IMG/VR virus record: IMGVR_UViG_3300030380_001290
Span: 1-35,724 of that record
Reading direction: 5' to 3' (one strand)
Source: a virus
Length of the DNA stretch: 35,724 nucleotides
The notes under the pieces were generated by a model. It saw nothing but the letters and a program-made list of their open reading frames with translations, was not told the origin of the DNA and ran no database searches. This document shows, piece after piece, positions 10,621-33,371 of this stretch. The position numbers and the translations under genes are program-made. The first letter of the stretch is position 1. Each line of letters starts with the position of its first letter.

Positions 10621-11168
10621 TTCCACCTTGGCCCTTCAAACCATGCTACTAAACTTACTCTTGTTCCACTCAGAACTGGTGTTACTCTATGTTGCAAATA
10701 GGAAGGAAAGACTAAAACTGTTCCCTTTTTAGTAGATAAATTATAATCTGGTGTTTGTGTTTCGTTAAACTCAAAGCCACCACCAGTGTAATCTTCTGGC
10801 CCACTAAGTTGCACTGTTACAGATAACTTTCTGTCGTATGCTTTGTCTCCATTCCAATGAATGTCATGGTGCCAATCGTAATGCCCAGACTCTGTTGCAT
10901 GATACTCTGTGTATTGAATGTCACCGACACTAGTTATATCAAACCCAAAAGCATTTCTATTTGCTTCTTCAACATATCCCCACAATAAATTTCTTACATC
11001 ATTATCATTGGTTAGCCATTTCACCTTTGACCTACGAACATCTACATTTACTTTGCTATCTGCAAATGTAGTAGCATTCATGTCAGGCAGTGCATCTGCC
11101 TTTTCGGTTATCAGTGCTAATTTATTGTCGGATAAAGCACCACTCCATAATTGCCAGTTTTGTCTCAT
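10617..11168 (-). CDS. 2-oxoglutarate/Fe(II) oxygenase, prolyl-4-hydroxylase/PKHD-like
   Basis: This 183-residue enzyme belongs to the double-stranded beta-helix 2OG-Fe(II) oxygenases. Iron ligands are H100 and D102 (GHYDWHHD, matching G-x-Y-x-x-H-x-D) and H160 (LQHRVTPV); R170 ([10 protein letters not shown]) is placed to bind 2-oxoglutarate. These enzymes use O2 and 2-oxoglutarate to hydroxylate proteins or small molecules; the closest patterns are the PKHD/P4H types. ATG 11168 overlaps the fibre stop (ATGA), so it is translationally coupled to a fibre with a collagen-like tract. Hydroxylation of fibre Pro (or Lys/Asp/Thr) is a natural hypothesis, not shown. Similar phage PKHD genes elsewhere have unknown substrates. 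Confidence 0.9.
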
Positions 11169-13321
11169 ATTACTGTCCAATTCTCTCCGCTTCCTACAGT
11201 CACAGTCACTCCACTATCAATAGTAATTGGTCCTGCACTATAAGCATTATAGGTGTTTGTAATTGTATAATCTGCGCTTACATTTTGTTTGTTTTCCCAA
11301 AAAGGTTGATTACTGCTATTTCTAATTACACCATTAAAATCACCGCTAAATGTACCGCTTGGTCCAGTTGGTCCTGTCGGTCCAGTCGGACCAGCAGACC
11401 CTGCTGAACCAGAAGGACCACTAGGACCAGTAGGTCCAGTGGGTCCAGTGGGTCCAGTTGAACCATCGCTACCATCGCTTCCTGACGGACCAGTCGGACC
11501 TGCTGGACCTGCAGGACCTGCAGGACCTGCTGGACCTGTAGAACCATCATTACCGTCACTTCCTGCAGGACCTGCTGGACCTGCAGGACCTGCTGGACCT
11601 GTACTTCCTGCAGGACCTGTGGGTCCTGTTGCACCTCTTAAATCTGCTGTAACAAAACCTAAACCATCATCTGAAGTAAACGTGATTTTACCAGTCGACG
11701 GAGCGTATGAGCCTCCAGTGAAACCATCACCTGTTGGACCTGTAGGTCCTGTTGGTCCCGTACTTCCTGCTGGACCTGTACTTCCTGCTGGACCTGCTGG
11801 ACCCGTAGGACCAGTTGAACCATCTGCACCATCTGAGCCATCTGAACCACTTGGCCCTGCAGGACCAGTAGGGCCTGTCGGACCAGTTGAACCTGCAGGA
11901 CCAGTTGGTCCAGCAACAGTTGAATCAGCGCCAGTAGGTCCTGTAGGACCTGTAGGCCCAGTTGGACCAGTAGAACCAGTAGGGCCAGTTGGTCCTGTTG
12001 CTCCTCGCAAATCTCCAGTTAAAAAACCAAGACCATCATTACTTGTAAAAGTTACTTTACCATTTGATGAATTATATGAACCACCTGTAAAACCATCACC
12101 AGTAGGGCCAGTAGGACCAGTAGGGCCAGTAGAACCAGCAGGTCCTGCAGGTCCTGTAGGTCCTGTTGGGCCTGTTGAACCATCATTACCATCCGCACCA
12201 GCAGGACCAGTAGGACCAGTAGAGCCTGTTGGTCCTGTAGGTCCAGTCGGTCCTGCAACAGTACTATCTGCTCCTGTTGGTCCAGTCGGTCCAGTTGGAC
12301 CTGTCGGTCCTGTAGGTCCTGTTGAACCAGTAGCACCAGTAGGTATTGTAAAATCAAATGTTGCCGATGATGATGAACCAGAATTACTAACAGATGCACT
12401 ACTACCAGCAGGACCTGTTGTAGTAGAGCCAACAGCAATAGTTGCCGCAGAACCTGTTGGCCCAGTTGCACCTGTTGATCCAGTACTACCTGTTGGACCA
12501 TTAGGTCCTGTAGGTCCTGTATTACCTGTTGGTCCAGTAGGCCCTGTTGGACCAGTTGGTCCAGCTACTGTAGAGTCTGCTCCTGTTGGACCAGTAGGAC
12601 CTGTAGAACCTGTAGGTCCAGTTGGGCCAGATGGACCTGTTGGTCCAGCAGGACCAGTTGGCCCTGTAGGTCCAGCTACAGTTGAATCTGCTCCTGTAGG
12701 ACCAGTTGGCCCTGCAGGTCCTGTGACTCCAGTATTACCTTTAGGTATTGTAAATAAAAATGTATTGGTATTTGCTGTATAACTTACAGATGCACTTGTT
12801 CCTGCATCACCAGTAGCAGTTGTCATTGAAGCATTATCCAATGATGGTTTAGCTTCTGGAACACCAGTTGAACTAAATCCTAATACTTTGTCTGCTCTTG
12901 CAGATGCAAGTGGCAATGATGTGCTAACTTCAGTATCATGATCAACAAGTCTAAGTGAACGTGTAGCTGTATCATCTACATCTGCTGATAAATATAAAAA
13001 TGTATCTAAGTCTGTATTTAATTGTGAAATATCAAATGCGCCTGTAGATGGAAAATCTGTTGTACGTGCTAATGCTGTATTGCGTAATATAACAACAGAA
13101 GAACCACCAGTTGCGCCTGTAACAGATTTTGTAATAGTTCCTGTTGACCCACTACCACCAGATACCTCACTCGAACTAAGTGAAGTTAATGTACCATCTA
13201 CATAAAAAAGTAATTCTGTATGAGTATTAAATTCAAATGTTACAGCAAACGTGGTCTGTGTTACACCTTGAGATACTGTGTAATGTTTTCTTGGTACATT
13301 ATTACCTGATGAAATAGTCAT
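11165..13321 (-). CDS. Tail fibre with T7-gp17-like N-terminus and collagen-like shaft
   Basis: This 718-residue fibre has three parts. Residues 1 to about 135 resemble the T7 fibre N-terminal domain that attaches to the tail ([20 protein letters not shown]; later [20 protein letters not shown]). Residues about 195-656 are Gly-x-y repeats, mostly Gly-Pro-Thr with Gly-Pro-Ala and Gly-Ser-Thr, interrupted by globular inserts. About 657-718 is a beta-rich C-terminal cap ([20 protein letters not shown]) that could trimerise or bind receptor. Two FTIP-x-G entries ([11 protein letters not shown] at 188-198, [11 protein letters not shown] at 322-332) each start a repeat tract. It would form a trimeric triple-helical shaft. 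The oxygenase gene overlaps its end. Confidence 0.93.
11354..12739 (-). repeat. Collagen-like Gly-Pro-Thr/Ala coding repeats with duplicated inserts
   Basis: Degenerate 9-base units encode Gly-x-y triplets across fibre residues about 195-656. [10 protein letters not shown] appears four times (residues from about 211, 248, 351 and 465). A 36-residue globular insert starting GDGFTGGSY occurs twice, at DNA 11996-12103 and 11624-11731. Pro is mostly in the X position (Gly-Pro-Thr, Gly-Pro-Ala). The opposite strand reads as a long Pro/Gly/Val open frame that is only a shadow. Confidence 0.9.
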
Positions 13322-13363: not shown

Positions 13364-16300
13364 TTATCTACCCAAATCTTTTAACATAGCTTTTGTATCA
13401 CCAAAAATATGAGGCAATCCAATAAGAGGTAAAGAGTTTACTAGTCTATCTGTACCTTCAGTTGTATTCCCATTAAAAAAATCGACTGCGGATCTACCAT
13501 AATCTGAGACTAAACCAACTGGAGCACCAAATGGTTCTAATACAGAATCAAAAGAATCAGGAGCATACTTACCTTTTATTAATCCTTTTTCAGCATCATA
13601 CAAACCTGTACCTGATGCTATATGTAAACCCATATATGCTAAATCAGAATACAAACCAGTTATACCAGAGTGGTCTATAATTCTTAATCCAAGATTAGTT
13701 GCATCTTTATCTTTAAACCACCAATAAGGTTTCTTTAAATCAAGAGCAAGATATGATAAGCCCATTAATGCAATAACACCAGTAAGTCTATGCTGTTGAT
13801 TAGGGTCACGTATTCTGCCTAAAATTTTATTATTGGCTGCAAATGCAAAATTCATAAAAGTAAAAGGTAAAGTCATTAACTGACTTTCAAGCCTTATAAG
13901 TTTTGTATTAGCGGTAGATACAGTTTCATCTATTGCATATAAATTAGGAAAAAGTTTTCTTGCGCCTTGAAAATATAAATTGTCTCTTGCATACACAACA
14001 CCATTTGCAATTAAAGGTATATCAAATTGTTGCCCATAAATAACTGAATTGTTAGCATGAGCATTTGTTGCCGCTTGCCATTTGCGTAACATTTCTATTT
14101 CTTGAGCAGTTTTTGAATTCCATTTTGTAATATTTGCATAATAAAAATTACCATTTGTTGCTTTATCAAATGGCATTTGTGCATAGTAAGCCGCATCTTC
14201 TTCTGTAATTCCATAACGAGCTAAATATTCTTTATCAAATTTTGATAAGTTTTTATAATTACGAGATAGTTGATAAAACTTATTATTAACTAATACATGG
14301 TCTAGTGTTTTACCAGCTTGTGTAATAGGTGTTAAAAGATTTGCTAAATAAAATAATTGATTTCCTTTAGCTATAAATTTTTCTCTAGCATTTGGTTGAT
14401 TACGTTTTATTGTATCTCCAATAATTCTACGCTGTGTATCACCTAATACAGATTCGAGTATATCACCGCCTATTCTACCATTTTTAATTATATCTGCCCT
14501 AAAGCCAGTATTTGTATAAGCTGTTATACCTGCTTGTATTGTATCTTTTAAACCATGTTGAAGTAAAATAGTTCCTAAATCTCCAACAGCAGATATACCT
14601 GCTAATGGCAAATATACCCAAGCAGAATAATTTTTTAGAATCATAGCAAGTTGATTGTCCCACCTATCAGCACTTTTAATAAGGCCACCAGTAGCACGTT
14701 CATATTCTGCTAAAAATGCCGCTTTTGTTTTAGCTATCTTAGCATCAGGCATATTAGCTTTTTTCATATCTGATTCAATATCTTTTAAAATATCTTCAAC
14801 AGATTTGTTATCAAACTTACGAGCAAACTCAATACGACCACCCATACGTTTTGCATAAGAAAATATTACATCTTTATTTTTTTGAATAAATGGTTCTACC
14901 TCCCATTCTTCAAATCCAGTTTTTCTTAATTTTAAATGCTTTGAGTTACCAGAAAAATTAGCTTCCATTTCTTCATCACTCTCTTGCATTATGTTTTTAT
15001 ATGTAGCTAGAGCATCATCTTCTGGAGTATTAGCAAACTTTTTATCAGGCATTATAGCTCTTTGTCTTGTATAAGACTTTGTTGCCATTTCTAAAAATGC
15101 TTCTTTGCCTTCTGGTGTTTGTAATTTTTCTCTATCATAATAAATAGAAAATCTAAAATTCTTGCGTGTTGGTGATTGTAACGCATCTTCTAACTCAATA
15201 CGTTTAGCACTTTCTCTTTCTCTTATATCATCTAGTCTTTTTAATTCAGCAGTTTGTTTCTTTGTTGCCCCTTGTTTAGCTCGAACATTAGCTTCAATAG
15301 CACCAGCTTTCTTTGCATTATCAGCTAACCTATCATCTATTTCTTGGATTAATTTTTTTATTTTAACATCATCTAACAACAAACCAACATATCTACCTTC
15401 TAAATCATACTGGTCAAAAAACTGTTTAATTAATGTAAAAGCTTGTTTTTGATTTGGTGTTGCATCATTTATAGCTGGTAAAGAAATAGATGGGTCAGGA
15501 TTATCTTGATTAATATATCGAGTAACAGTTTCTTCCCACCATTCATCTGCTGTTAATTGTGTATCTGCAAACTTAGTATTATTATTTATATTAATATCTC
15601 GACTGTATAATTCATCCATTTCGTTTATTAATTTAAAAGCATTACCATCATGCGTAGTAATCATTTGTGCAACAGAAGCTTCACCCATGCCTTTTCGTTG
15701 TCTATTAATACCAAGTGAAGAATTATAAGATACTTTTGCAAATAACTCTTTAACAGATTGAGGTATTTTCCTATCAGATAATACTGTTTTGGTAGGGGTA
15801 GGAATAAAATCTGTTGTTGTTAAATCATAATCGCCTAGTGATTTATCATACTCTGTATAGTTTTCATCTGAAAATTTAATATTACCTTCTTCATCTATAA
15901 ATCTTTTAGATTGTTTACCTCTAGCTAAACCTATTGTTTTGTTTACAGTTCCTTTAACACCTCTTGCTAATATAGGTGTAGCTCCAAATCCTAATCCAAG
16001 CGCACCAGATAAAATAGTTGTGGTTGCAACATTAGATAAAACTTCTCCTTGTTCATTTACATCAAAAGGCGCACGTCTTCCTTCAGATGCAAGAGCAAAT
16101 ATACTACCCTGTTTTGTAAATGCACCTGTTGTTTGCAAAAGACTTTTGCCTTTCAATCCAATATTAAACAAAGGAGAAAAACTAATAAAAAATAATGGAT
16201 CGAAAGGCATAGCTGTCAAAGCTGGTAATACACCAGACTGTGACAAAACTTTTTTTCTATCTAAAGAAGCTCTTAAATTTTGAACAAGAAAATTAAAATG

Positions 16301-16540
16301 TTCTTCATTTTTATAATGATATAATTGTTTGTAATGTGGCAATAAATCATCAGGTATTTCAGCTTTAAAATTAGGGTCTTTTGGAATAGCACCAAATCTT
16401 ACACCTTCTTCTACACTATTCAGTAACGGAGCATTTACATAAGCAACATTAGCTTTAAACCCTTCTACAAAAGAAGGGTCATCTTGATACCTAATAATAT
16501 CATCAGGACTTAATAATATTTCTCTTAAACTTATATCCAT
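13364..16540 (-). CDS. Internal virion protein, T7 gp16-like position
   Basis: This 1058-residue protein is the largest internal-core candidate and directly follows the 747-residue one, as gp16 follows gp15 in T7. It begins MDISLREILLSPDDIIRYQD. Hydrophobic patches at about 100-135 (ALTAMPFDPLFFISFSPLFN) and about 172-193, a long charged coiled-coil-like region at about 400-450 and a second hydrophobic zone at about 645-690 fit a DNA-ejection channel protein. I do not see the lytic transglycosylase motif found at the N-terminus of T7 gp16. No detailed homology is visible; the call rests on order, size and composition. Confidence 0.75.
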   Translation of the reverse strand: MDISLREILLSPDDIIRYQDDPSFVEGFKANVAYVNAPLLNSVEEGVRFGAIPKDPNFKAEIPDDLLPHYKQLYHYKNEEHFNFLVQNLRASLDRKKVLSQSGVLPALTAMPFDPLFFISFSPLFNIGLKGKSLLQTTGAFTKQGSIFALASEGRRAPFDVNEQGEVLSNVATTTILSGALGLGFGATPILARGVKGTVNKTIGLARGKQSKRFIDEEGNIKFSDENYTEYDKSLGDYDLTTTDFIPTPTKTVLSDRKIPQSVKELFAKVSYNSSLGINRQRKGMGEASVAQMITTHDGNAFKLINEMDELYSRDININNNTKFADTQLTADEWWEETVTRYINQDNPDPSISLPAINDATPNQKQAFTLIKQFFDQYDLEGRYVGLLLDDVKIKKLIQEIDDRLADNAKKAGAIEANVRAKQGATKKQTAELKRLDDIRERESAKRIELEDALQSPTRKNFRFSIYYDREKLQTPEGKEAFLEMATKSYTRQRAIMPDKKFANTPEDDALATYKNIMQESDEEMEANFSGNSKHLKLRKTGFEEWEVEPFIQKNKDVIFSYAKRMGGRIEFARKFDNKSVEDILKDIESDMKKANMPDAKIAKTKAAFLAEYERATGGLIKSADRWDNQLAMILKNYSAWVYLPLAGISAVGDLGTILLQHGLKDTIQAGITAYTNTGFRADIIKNGRIGGDILESVLGDTQRRIIGDTIKRNQPNAREKFIAKGNQLFYLANLLTPITQAGKTLDHVLVNNKFYQLSRNYKNLSKFDKEYLARYGITEEDAAYYAQMPFDKATNGNFYYANITKWNSKTAQEIEMLRKWQAATNAHANNSVIYGQQFDIPLIANGVVYARDNLYFQGARKLFPNLYAIDETVSTANTKLIRLESQLMTLPFTFMNFAFAANNKILGRIRDPNQQHRLTGVIALMGLSYLALDLKKPYWWFKDKDATNLGLRIIDHSGITGLYSDLAYMGLHIASGTGLYDAEKGLIKGKYAPDSFDSVLEPFGAPVGLVSDYGRSAVDFFNGNTTEGTDRLVNSLPLIGLPHIFGDTKAMLKDLGR

Positions 16541-18784
16541 TTAATCACCAAAAAAATTGGGTGTTATTAATTTTCCTAATTCTTTCCAACTCATCATTGG
16601 TTTTCTACTTTCATTTGCTCCTATTTCATCTGCTTGTTGTTGTATATTAGAAGATAATGATGGAGTATATGGGCCTTTTTGAGCTAACTCATTAAAGCGA
16701 GTCAAATCTGTGTTTCGTTCATTAGCTAAATCTTGATAATGTTTAATCATACCTGCTCTATTTATCTGTAATACAGTACTACCTACAATAATAGGCCTAG
16801 AAAATTCATCTACTAATGTATAATTAGGATATGCTCCACTTATATTTCTTGGTTCTGCAACAAAAACATTTTTACCAAATACAGGCTCTTGTCCATTTAA
16901 AAATATTTTTTTAGATGTATCATCCATTGTGTCTAAAATCATTTGCGCTTGAAACTGAAACTCTTGAATATCATCTCCTTTTTCTCCATATAATCTTTCT
17001 GGAGCAAACTGAGAAACATTAAACTCAGGAACCATAAACTGAGAACCTTTTCTATAAAATCGATTAGATAAAGATTGTCTCATTATATCTGTGCCTAGTT
17101 CTTTACCATAAACCGCTACAAGTTTAGGCAAACTTGCTCTTACATAATTATCTTCAGCAGGTGTAAGACCTCTTTCATCGCCAAAAGCAAAAGTATCATA
17201 AGTAAATTCTTTGGTAATATATTCATCAAGTGTCTTAAAATCTTCCCCCATTTGAGATTCAAATGTTTGTTTTACATTTATATTAGGGTCATTTAATCTT
17301 CTTACTACTTCTGGTATATCTGCAACTTGTGCTGTTTGTGACAATAGTTCTATTGATGTCATTAGTTCAATAGTGCTATCTGATAACCCTCTATACAAAA
17401 ATTGATTATTTTGTGTTCGTGTTAAGGCATTATAAAATCTTACAAGACCTGTTGCATCTTGTTGATTATTGCTAACTAGTCTTAATATATTGTCTTGTTT
17501 AAAAAAATCTTTAAATACTTGAGGCAAGTCTTGTTGTTGATTAAACATTACCTTAAACAAAGGTGAGTTTGTATCATTTAAACCTTGTTCTGAAAAAAGC
17601 ACTCTGTATAAATCATTAGGCGTTTCAATACCAAGACCAACTTTTAAATAATTTTCTAAATTACTTGGTGTAACTGGGATATTATTTGTAATTCTTTCTT
17701 GAGTTAATACAGATTGTTTTATATCTCTAGTAAGTGTTTGATTTTCAGAAAGAGTATTAGCAATAGTAGTTATATCTGAAGCAATATCTTTTCTAATAAC
17801 AAAAGGAGTTGAGTTTAAATAATCCTCATCAAAACCATACTGCGCTAATATTTCTTTTGACTGAGGACTAATAGACACACCTCTTAAACCAAGAGCTACT
17901 TCATTTAAAGAAGCTTCTTGAAGTTGTTGATTATATAATAAATCAGGACTAAATTGAGTATTTGCAATAGCGTTTACAACTCTTGTAACAGGCACAGTAG
18001 CAAATGATTTTTCTATTCTTCTTAAATCTCTATCTCTATTATCACTAGAATATCTTGTAGGATGAGATTCATATATTTCATTTACTTGACTAATTAATTT
18101 TTCTTTATACTTAAACAAAAATTCTGAGTTTGTAAGAGAAACTTGGTCATCACCTTCGCCAAGATAAAAAAATGGTTGTTCAGCTAATCCTTGAATACCA
18201 GACTCTAAATCATTCAAATCACCATCTAATAAACCAATTTCAGTATTAAATGCCTGTCTATCTTCAAAATTTGCTTTATTTACATACAAAGCATTAGCAT
18301 GTTGCAATCCATATTGACTAACAGATATATCAACTAATGGTTTGTATTTACCTGCTTTATCTGCGTATCCTTCTTGCCAACCACTTAATGCTGTAAGAAA
18401 TCCCTCTGGATCATTTTTATATTCTCTAGCTAATTCAGCACTTTTATATTGAACATCAAATTGTATTTGTTGGGCATACATTTTATCAAGAGTTTCTTGA
18501 ACAGCCCTTCTTTGTACTGGAGAAAAACTTTCTGGTAATTTTTTAAATACTAATGTACCTCTGCCAGTTGGGTCATTATCATCTGTTTCTCTTAATGACA
18601 TTTGACTTACAGTATCTAATGCTTGTTCTTCTTGTTTTCTTACATCTACTTTATATTGCATTTGTGCAATATTTTCAGTTACTTGTGAAAACGCATTAGC
18701 TAATTTTGTAGGAGCTTGACTTACACCAGAAACCCCTATTGGTGAATTAAAATTTTGAGATGTTCGATATACTTGAATAGCCAT
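16541..18784 (-). CDS. Internal virion protein, T7 gp15-like position
   Basis: This 747-residue protein starts at ATG 18784 (MAIQVYRTSQNFNSPIGVSG) two bases after the upstream stop; a GTG 12 bases upstream is less likely. It is long, mostly helical and Gln-rich, without catalytic motifs, ending KLITPNFFGD. Its size and place between the 149- and 1058-residue proteins match gp15 of T7-like phages, which helps build the ejection tunnel. The stop is directly followed by the next ATG, with a ribosome binding site (GGTGA) made by its own last codons. Confidence 0.75.
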   Translation of the reverse strand: MAIQVYRTSQNFNSPIGVSGVSQAPTKLANAFSQVTENIAQMQYKVDVRKQEEQALDTVSQMSLRETDDNDPTGRGTLVFKKLPESFSPVQRRAVQETLDKMYAQQIQFDVQYKSAELAREYKNDPEGFLTALSGWQEGYADKAGKYKPLVDISVSQYGLQHANALYVNKANFEDRQAFNTEIGLLDGDLNDLESGIQGLAEQPFFYLGEGDDQVSLTNSEFLFKYKEKLISQVNEIYESHPTRYSSDNRDRDLRRIEKSFATVPVTRVVNAIANTQFSPDLLYNQQLQEASLNEVALGLRGVSISPQSKEILAQYGFDEDYLNSTPFVIRKDIASDITTIANTLSENQTLTRDIKQSVLTQERITNNIPVTPSNLENYLKVGLGIETPNDLYRVLFSEQGLNDTNSPLFKVMFNQQQDLPQVFKDFFKQDNILRLVSNNQQDATGLVRFYNALTRTQNNQFLYRGLSDSTIELMTSIELLSQTAQVADIPEVVRRLNDPNINVKQTFESQMGEDFKTLDEYITKEFTYDTFAFGDERGLTPAEDNYVRASLPKLVAVYGKELGTDIMRQSLSNRFYRKGSQFMVPEFNVSQFAPERLYGEKGDDIQEFQFQAQMILDTMDDTSKKIFLNGQEPVFGKNVFVAEPRNISGAYPNYTLVDEFSRPIIVGSTVLQINRAGMIKHYQDLANERNTDLTRFNELAQKGPYTPSLSSNIQQQADEIGANESRKPMMSWKELGKLITPNFFGD

Positions 18785-31995: not shown

Positions 31996-32373
31996 CTATG
32001 TCAAGTCAATCTGCACGGTTATGTCTCCTGCGTGCATGTGCATGTGTCGCTCTGGAGCCTTGAATCCTGCACGGTCTAAGATATCCTTACTTGCTTCTAG
32101 CTGAACGTACTCCGACTTGGCTCCACGAGCAAGTTGCACAAGCTTCGCAGAGGCAACCGTAGCAGACACACCCATTGTCTCAGCTATCCTCTGCATCATG
32201 TACGTTTGCACATGTGGCAACCGCAAAGTCTTACTGGCTGTCACTCTTCCTGCTTCACCAGAAGCATAACCTGCAAGACGAGAGGCTTCAGCCACACTGC
32301 ATCCATTTGCTACGAGAGTATCAACAAGCCTCGTCTGTCTTGTGGTTAATTGCTTCGTTGCCACGTTACTCAT
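31996..32373 (-). CDS. terS: Terminase small subunit-like protein
   Basis: This 125-residue protein begins MSNVATKQLTTRQTRLVDTL and continues ANGCSVAEASRLAGYASGEA, an HTH DNA-recognition domain of small terminases (LT.rQ..fv...l..G.s..eAar.aGy), with RLPHVQTYMMQRIAETMGVS after it. The body is helical (oligomerisation) and the end DITVQIDLT is short. ATG 32373 follows AAGGG; an in-frame ATG at 32454 would put two G-runs inside the gene. TerS selects the packaging site for TerL; here it is separated from TerL by about 2.8 kb of small genes. It is much higher in G+C than its neighbours. Confidence 0.85.
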   Translation of the reverse strand: MSNVATKQLTTRQTRLVDTLVANGCSVAEASRLAGYASGEAGRVTASKTLRLPHVQTYMMQRIAETMGVSATVASAKLVQLARGAKSEYVQLEASKDILDRAGFKAPERHMHMHAGDITVQIDLT

Positions 32374-32390: not shown

Positions 32391-32411
32391 CCCCCCCTTG
32401 TGTTCCCCCCC
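32391..32411 (-). promoter_or_regulatory. Twin G7 tracts in the TerS leader
   Basis: Reading leftward, two runs of seven G are separated by seven bases (32391-32397 and 32405-32411) just upstream of the AAGGG ribosome binding site of TerS. They could fold into a G-quadruplex or vary in length by slippage. It was found by eye; no function is shown. Confidence 0.5.
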
Positions 32412-32605
32412 TTTTGTGAACCAGAAGATAACACCTTGTCAAGTCACAATTCATTCACGCACACAGGAGGTCGAATTTATACCAGACGATTTGTCTCTTT
32501 TGGGCGTTTGTATTCCTTACCTGTCCGACAACTCCTATGTTCTTGTACTGTTGTGAATCGCCTATCTGAATCACAATCCTGTCATATCATCAAACTGCTT
32601 CCGTC

Positions 32606-32672
32606 TTGCAATGACAACTTGCTATAGGAGCAAGTTGGCTTAGATTGAGCCAAGACAAGCTTGGCATTGCAA
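32606..32672. ncRNA. Compact three-stem structured element
   Basis: TTGCAATG (32606-32613) pairs with CATTGCAA (32665-32672) as a closing stem. Inside it, CAACTTGCT/AGCAAGTTG (32615-32623 with 32629-32637, five-base loop) and GCCAAG/CTTGGC (32649-32654 with 32660-32665, five-base loop; shares one base with the closing stem) form two hairpins. All arms are exactly complementary. It is not a tRNA: no T-loop or anticodon arm. It may be a small RNA, leader riboregulator or a cis-acting DNA site such as a packaging or replication site. Strand is not determined. Confidence 0.5.
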
Positions 32673-32756
32673 CGTTCGTGAAGCTGTTTGACAATCTGCC
32701 ATGCTAGTGATTGCAGGTCGATGTCTACAACAGTACATCAAACAAAGGAGAATAAG

Positions 32757-33146
32757 ATGTCAAACAAGGTAAATAACACAAACGGTATAACAAAAGAGTT
32801 TAACAAATCATCTGGTATAAATTCGAGAGTATACAGATCACAATTACAGTTTCATCTACAAAGATTGATAGACAATATCGATTACAATTCACAAACAAAA
32901 AGAGACTTGATGGAAAAAAATCAGGCATGGGCAAGAGATCATCAGCTTGAACACAAAGAGAAAGGTACAATGCTTGACAATGATGAGATACTCAACAGGA
33001 ATAGAGTCAACACTTGGAAAGAAGAAGAAATAGAAGTTAACAATGATATACGCGCTGTAGTTCTTGAAGCTTTCGAGCAGTTGTTTCCAGAAGATTTCAA
33101 CAAGTCAAATTCAGTAGCTGATGCACTCGCAAAACTCACAGCATAA
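32757..33146 (+). CDS. Hypothetical early protein
   Basis: This 129-residue protein starts MSNKVNNTNGITKEFNKSSG at ATG 32757 with AAAGGAGAA upstream. It is highly charged (Lys/Glu/Asn) and helical; the middle is HLQRLIDNIDYNSQTKRDLM and the end EDFNKSNSVADALAKLT. No family is recognised. It is the first gene of the rightward operon and is followed by a strong terminator, so it may be expressed separately from the genes after it, as early phage genes often are. Confidence 0.7.
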   Translation: MSNKVNNTNGITKEFNKSSGINSRVYRSQLQFHLQRLIDNIDYNSQTKRDLMEKNQAWARDHQLEHKEKGTMLDNDEILNRNRVNTWKEEEIEVNNDIRAVVLEAFEQLFPEDFNKSNSVADALAKLTA

Positions 33147-33155
33147 CATACAAAC

Positions 33156-33188
33156 AAAGACTCAGTGCTTCGGTACTGGGTCTTTTTT
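33156..33188 (+). terminator. Rho-independent terminator after the first rightward gene
   Basis: AAAGACTCAGT pairs with ACTGGGTCTTT (one G-U) around GCTTCGGT, followed by TTT. It ends the 32757-33146 transcript. Confidence 0.85.
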
Positions 33189-33250: not shown

Positions 33251-33343
33251 ATGATACATAATATACTCGAAGCGATAACAACAATAGCATTCATGCTGAC
33301 GCTGTTTGGGGTAATGATTGCTATCCTAGTTATCTTTGCGTGA
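33251..33343 (+). CDS. Small hydrophobic peptide
   Basis: This 30-residue frame MIHNILEAITTIAFMLTLFG and on to VMIAILVIFA is almost entirely one membrane helix. A weak SD-like AGG is near ATG 33251. It stops 28 bases before the DUF932-like gene. It may be a leader or membrane microprotein; too short for homology. Confidence 0.45.
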   Translation: MIHNILEAITTIAFMLTLFGVMIAILVIFA

Positions 33344-33371
33344 AAAAAAGTCAAACATAAAGGAGAACCAA

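Follow-up and report, generated by a model that had tools for sequence, protein, structure and literature searches.

In eukaryotes, hpRNA loci and young plant MIRNA loci carry an inverted copy of a coding gene and form a long imperfect hairpin that co-evolves with that gene. Type I toxin-antitoxin systems and other cis-antisense RNAs involve an RNA that is antisense to a small neighbouring gene, and strand-specific hairpins occur in primosome assembly sites, such as that of phiX174, and in plasmid single-strand origins. GOLLD and ROOL are very large structured RNAs, associated with bacteria and phages, that adopt ornate conserved folds (PMC12286853). In conjugative plasmids, the Frpo/ssi single-stranded promoters form a hairpin immediately ahead of a unit's first gene, in the template strand of that gene (PMC11541004). 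Background on PriA and DnaT is available in PMC4129139.

We analysed a 35.7-kb virus record (the window, i.e., the whole stretch of 35,724 nucleotides), which encodes a T7-type portal protein (PF12236), TerS, TerL, an integrase and a divergent gene that we call gene A. We show here that the window and its relatives carry a giant hairpin locus in which gene A forms one arm and its non-coding mirror the other, with a branched tip between them. The inverted gene copy in a long imperfect hairpin and its co-evolution with the gene resemble hpRNA and MIRNA loci, but the locus belongs to a phage, its mirror is attached to the gene itself, there is no RNAi machinery, and its RNA is a predicted one. 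Like GOLLD and ROOL the element is very large and structured, whereas its sequence changes freely within a mirror hairpin and Rfam holds no match: neither the window nor any of 20 related loci gave a match in searches with the Rfam 15 covariance models and with ARAGORN (tRNA/tmRNA). The position of a single-strand hairpin ahead of a unit's first gene, in the template strand, recalls Frpo/ssi. However, the arms run through the gene and the host replicon is a dsDNA phage. Promoter-like (−35/−10) sites are not enriched in the hairpin domain or stem, so that an Frpo-type promoter was rejected. An attP site was likewise rejected, as an integrase was found in only 3 of 25 near-complete members while the hairpin is present in nearly all loci. 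With primosome assembly sites and single-strand origins the locus shares a strand-specific hairpin, in a clade dependent on host replication enzymes, but a whole-gene mirror is not part of those sites. As in type I toxin-antitoxin and other cis-antisense systems, an RNA antisense to the adjacent small gene would be the likely actor; here, in contrast, a mirror decoy would be part of the antisense RNA itself, and gene A encodes a helical protein of 129–165 residues with no toxin match. The locus is thus assigned to no known family, given the failed Rfam and tRNA tests and the absence of the testable Frpo and attP features. A literature search found no paper on the closest isolated relative, phage Hodr, or on a comparable element, and we know of no comparable element in phages.

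In the window, terS (31996–32373, minus strand; PF03592, phrog_51) is the first gene of the late operon, and gene A (32757–33146, plus strand) is the first divergent gene, opposite terS. Gene A is taken to be a real gene from its third-position excess and in-frame indels among relatives. Its 129-residue product, of unassigned function, is modelled by AF2 as a long helical hairpin (pLDDT 84.5), and a structure search returned no PDB match at E ≤ 0.001 and nothing informative. An intrinsic terminator lies 3′ of gene A at 33156–33188 (plus strand), as found in a relative with the same sequence (L003). A putative −35 element of the terS promoter (TTGACA, 32437–32442, minus strand) is suggested by the sequence and by relatives; a stricter promoter scan gave no match, and the corresponding −10 is weak in the window and strong in Hodr-type relatives. 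In the window and, at the same place, in much of the clade, the stretch from this promoter to the start of terS contains two G7 tracts (GGGGGGG(A)ACACA(A)GGGGGGG, 32391–32411, minus-strand reading), which Hodr lacks. On the other side of gene A, before a DUF932 gene, a small open reading frame (33252–33344, plus strand) probably encodes a 30-residue membrane peptide and is flanked by an inverted repeat (33238–33252/33323–33337).

A first-pass annotation of this DNA had described a closed 67-nt fold at 32606–32672, between terS and the early operon, made of three perfectly complementary stems and matching neither a tRNA nor a terminator. The fold exists and is non-random: its RNA minimum free energy is −25.1 kcal/mol against a shuffle mean of −15.1 (z = −4.18), a value equalled by none of 200 base-shuffled controls. 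The 8-bp outer stem (32606–32613/32665–32672) and the 9-bp hairpin (32615–32623/32629–32637) are perfectly complementary as described, and the tRNA and terminator exclusions hold. The 6-bp hairpin also exists, but its 5′ arm shares about 3 nt with the 9-bp stem and competes with another 6-bp pairing (GCCAAG/CTTGGC); the inner arrangement of the tip is therefore an ensemble, and when both strands are folded each picks a different inner option. A motif in the internal loop of the tip, AAC(A/C)CGG...GCGGGCA, recurs, always on the terS strand, in L014, L020, L024, L026, L031, L039, L083 and L085; in the form AACACGG..GCGGGCA it is found in several subclades, in an alignment too loose for model building.

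The boundaries of the fold were drawn too small. The 67 nt, to which we assign no strand, are the branched tip of a 356-bp imperfect palindrome at 32471–32826, and across the clade the palindrome is 5 to 20 times larger than the tip. A self-search of the window first revealed the inverted match around the fold. The left arm (32471–32613, minus strand) includes a non-coding mirror of the start of gene A and ends before terS; the right arm (32665–32826, plus strand) holds the leader, the ribosome-binding site (32744–32750, plus strand) and the first ~23 codons of gene A. A 24-nt mirror segment at the outer end of the left arm (32471–32494, minus strand) matches gene A at 32803–32826, inside the coding sequence, at 23 of 24 positions. 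The arm alignment scores 47, compared with a maximum of 20 in 200 shuffles, and the terS-sense (minus) strand folds best, with a minimum free energy of −155.9 versus −137.8. Folded as DNA, the 226-nt part at 32532–32757 has z-scores of −9.2 (terS strand) and −8.2 (opposite strand). The hairpin is the top palindromic centre along both the window and Hodr; in the window only collagen-like repeats at 11–13 kb also score high, in a region where a tail protein with collagen-like GPT repeats is encoded (11165–13321, minus strand). A coarse 220-nt energy scan ranked the hairpin first in Hodr; in the window, the scan grid split the arms and the hairpin did not come first.

Among isolates, Pelagibacter phage EXVC031P Hodr is the closest (identities of 63% for the portal, 66% for TerL and 59% for TerS), and IMG/VR holds hundreds of related stretches; five terS relatives were located in MAG contigs. 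We surveyed related marine podoviruses, mostly uncultivated contigs but with Hodr among them, and compared the 91 nonredundant spacers that precede terS. These spacers fold far better than shuffles (median z = −5.6, versus −1.9 for a terS coding control). A hairpin domain could be defined in 89 of them (median 229 nt, median z = −8.7, 94% below −3), starting a median of 5 nt from the ATG of gene A, where gene starts were called automatically. The ribosome site of gene A is engaged in long-range pairing in 58 of the 91 loci, including the window. In 55 of 91 the inverted repeat extends into the gene A coding region with z above 4, as found with cheap-gap alignments and confirmed with stricter gaps. 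The hairpin is kept in 33 loci in which no mirror is detectable, and there it starts further from gene A (median 26 nt versus 3). In L004, the hairpin sequence is unrelated to that of the window although the TerS proteins are 98% identical. The hairpin locus is thus shown to be conserved in position, size and pairing, not in sequence, across this marine podovirus clade. Cassette-like swaps are seen between close relatives, either of inner hairpins (L018 and L020) or of the hairpin together with gene A (the window and L003 versus L004).

The mirror covers the whole of gene A in 13 loci, giving hairpins of 1.2–1.4 kb. In all 13, the gene arm ends 32–65 nt past the gene A stop codon, although 860–1000 nt of arm were available, and in the 12 with a terminator found this end is offset by −6 to +17 nt from that of the terminator. 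At its other end, the mirror stops before the terS promoter in most whole-gene loci; in Hodr-type phages it traverses the promoter and reaches ~95 nt into terS. Similarity to inverted gene A coding sequence extends over the terS promoter plus the initial ~95 nt of terS in Hodr (L083, 19880–20070), L107, L110, L100 and L104. The mirror is ~80% complementary to gene A, with a flat ~80% identity over 450 nt, and perfect pairing is short: the longest perfect run is 12–17 nt in nine whole-gene mirrors, and the longest perfect stem has a median of 12 nt and is at least 20 nt in just 2 of 133 loci. Mirrors are stop-ridden, whole-gene mirrors being broken in all frames, and the terminator copy within the mirror is damaged in the examples read by eye. 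The idea that the mirror side holds an intact, divergent paralogue of gene A was therefore rejected; a partly similar open reading frame occurs in L234 only.

Gene A and its mirror co-vary site by site. Among 18 listed phage pairs, 17 of them usable, we followed sites paired in one phage. The mirror had changed at 0.49 of those where gene A had changed versus 0.09 of the others (odds ratio 9.4, p = 3e-110), a large effect whose p value is optimistic because some phages were used twice and the pairs are not fully independent. The outcomes were 206 compensatory and 26 wobble changes versus 75 non-pairing ones. When the register was slid by 3–9 nt, the odds ratio fell from 8.4 to 1.4–1.9. Within the spacer hairpin, double changes kept Watson–Crick pairing in 168 cases and lost it in 78. 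The element thus passes both refutation tests set with the first-pass annotation, since it folds beyond shuffles and shows compensatory change in related phages; together these indicate a pairing constraint on a structured nucleic acid. A structured element in the divergent region is therefore upheld, but it is the divergent gene, not terS, to which its arms are linked.

The two strands are not equivalent. The terS-sense strand is the more stable one in 44 of 47 whole palindromes and, beyond dinucleotide composition, in 68 of 89 hairpin domains, and for whole-gene palindromes its mean minimum free energy is −666 versus −555 kcal/mol. Read on the terS strand, the ratio of G·T to A·C mismatches is 106:33 in the hairpin, 580:220 in the coding arms (from the same cheap-gap alignments, again confirmed with stricter gaps) and 247:50 in whole-gene mirrors. 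Among one-sided gene/mirror changes it is 156:95, while recent one-sided changes within the spacer alone are 95:89, without strand bias. Since the mirror gains G and T generally, mutation bias may contribute to, or mimic, wobble. Relative to expectation, G·T (1.75), A·G (1.24) and T·T (1.16) mismatches are in excess, G·G is at 0.99, and C·T (0.58), A·A (0.53), A·C (0.50) and C·C (0.46) are depleted. This profile fits RNA wobble; it also matches the order of mismatch stability in DNA.

The best reading, which we hold tentatively, is an antisense RNA transcribed in the terS direction with a built-in mirror of gene A. Such an RNA would run through the antisense of gene A, the tip and the mirror, and would fold on itself, G·U pairs included, into an imperfect hairpin of 0.4–1.4 kb. 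Its antisense half could pair with gene A mRNA, and the mirror half would act as a built-in competitor that holds the antisense half; the RNA, or its cleavage by an RNase III-type enzyme, would then determine how gene A is expressed at the early/late divide. With mismatches this frequent, the DNA palindrome would be tolerable and the arms kept from recombining, while RNA pairing would be preserved. Counting for this RNA are the covariation and its loss on register slide, the greater stability of the terS strand in domains and whole palindromes, the one-strand G·T excess, the arm ends near terminator and promoter, the broken mirror frames and the avoidance of perfect runs. Counting against it are the balanced recent changes in the spacer, the general gain of G and T by the mirror, tip triloops that look DNA-like, and the promoter searches: no promoter for a terS-direction RNA is conserved among relatives or enriched at arm ends, and a candidate antisense start at the arm end (TATACT in the window) was rejected as not general (5 of 45 loci versus 1–5 of 45 at shifted positions).

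Three roles had been proposed for the fold: a regulatory RNA, now the most likely, a replication element, its main rival, and a packaging site, which fares poorly. In the replication case, a single-stranded terS strand would fold into the hairpin, at which replication would start, a primosome load or synthesis prime itself, much as at the phiX174 primosome assembly site, plasmid single-strand origins or Frpo; the mirror would derive from fold-back copying of the gene arm. The terS strand carries 20 GNA triloops, mostly C-GNA-G, against 0 of the complementary type; under DNA parameters it is the more stable strand in 77 of 89 domains, and the hairpin persists where the mirror is not detectable. 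In the 25 near-complete members no DNA polymerase A or DnaB was found, whereas a DnaT-like domain occurs in 7 and an SSB in 6. We nevertheless consider an ssDNA element somewhat unlikely: the triloop bias weakens to 19:14 over whole spacers, an arm that ends at a transcription terminator is unexpected of an origin, and the long perfect stretches that fold-back copying would be expected to produce are rare. The locus could instead be an old palindrome without function, its arms kept alike only by template switching or gene conversion. Concerted change of gene and mirror, site by site, would follow from such a process, quasi-palindrome correction is a recognised phenomenon, and inner hairpins have been exchanged between contigs (L018 and L020). 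However, the short perfect runs and flat identity of the mirrors argue against conversion as the sole cause, the differences are strand-biased, and the structure is conserved across lineages with unrelated sequences, so that a mere by-product appears unlikely.

Pairing of the gene A ribosome site in most loci, and arms that end at the gene A terminator, would also suit a leader of gene A mRNA, starting from a promoter near terS, in which the 5′ portion would be base-paired to the coding region and ribosome site and would block translation until the leader is opened. This is improbable, because the early strand is the less stable one and the favoured differences become A·C mismatches on it, mirror-less hairpins start further from the gene, and no consistent early-strand promoter was found. 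Still more doubtful, and in our view very improbable, is a packaging element (cos/pac or a TerS-binding site). The locus adjoins terS, and contig ends fall 0–300 nt upstream of terS 23 times versus 8.6 expected (175 loci), but they are scattered with no single position and palindromes break assemblies; moreover, the hairpin of L004 is unrelated despite its near-identical TerS, and the pairing is mainly with gene A, not terS. The excess of contig ends may itself reflect either assembly breaks at the palindrome or physical ends.

The anatomy is strong and clade-wide: a coding gene is paired lengthwise with a stop-ridden mirror that follows the gene's changes. Returning to the antisense RNA, it is quite possible, though we would not put it more firmly, that the locus has an organisation previously undescribed in bacterial viruses. 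In it, a non-coding and imperfect inverted copy with a strand bias would mirror all of gene A, ribosome site and terminator included, and co-evolve with the gene at single-base level across a branched tip; the whole would encode a giant hairpin RNA, up to 1.4 kb long, that combines antisense and decoy and controls gene A. If so, bacterial viruses would have their own counterpart of gene-derived hairpin RNAs, and with it a new form of gene control at the early/late switch. If the element instead acts as DNA, it would be a single-strand hairpin of a new type, carried by dsDNA phages for which we found no phage-encoded polymerase. Under either reading, direct testing is possible with the isolate Hodr on its Pelagibacter host HTCC1062. 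Elsewhere in the Hodr genome, the minus strand encodes a replication-initiator-like fusion of an HTH and a DnaT domain (16052–16579) and an ArdC-type anti-restriction protein (17553–18437).
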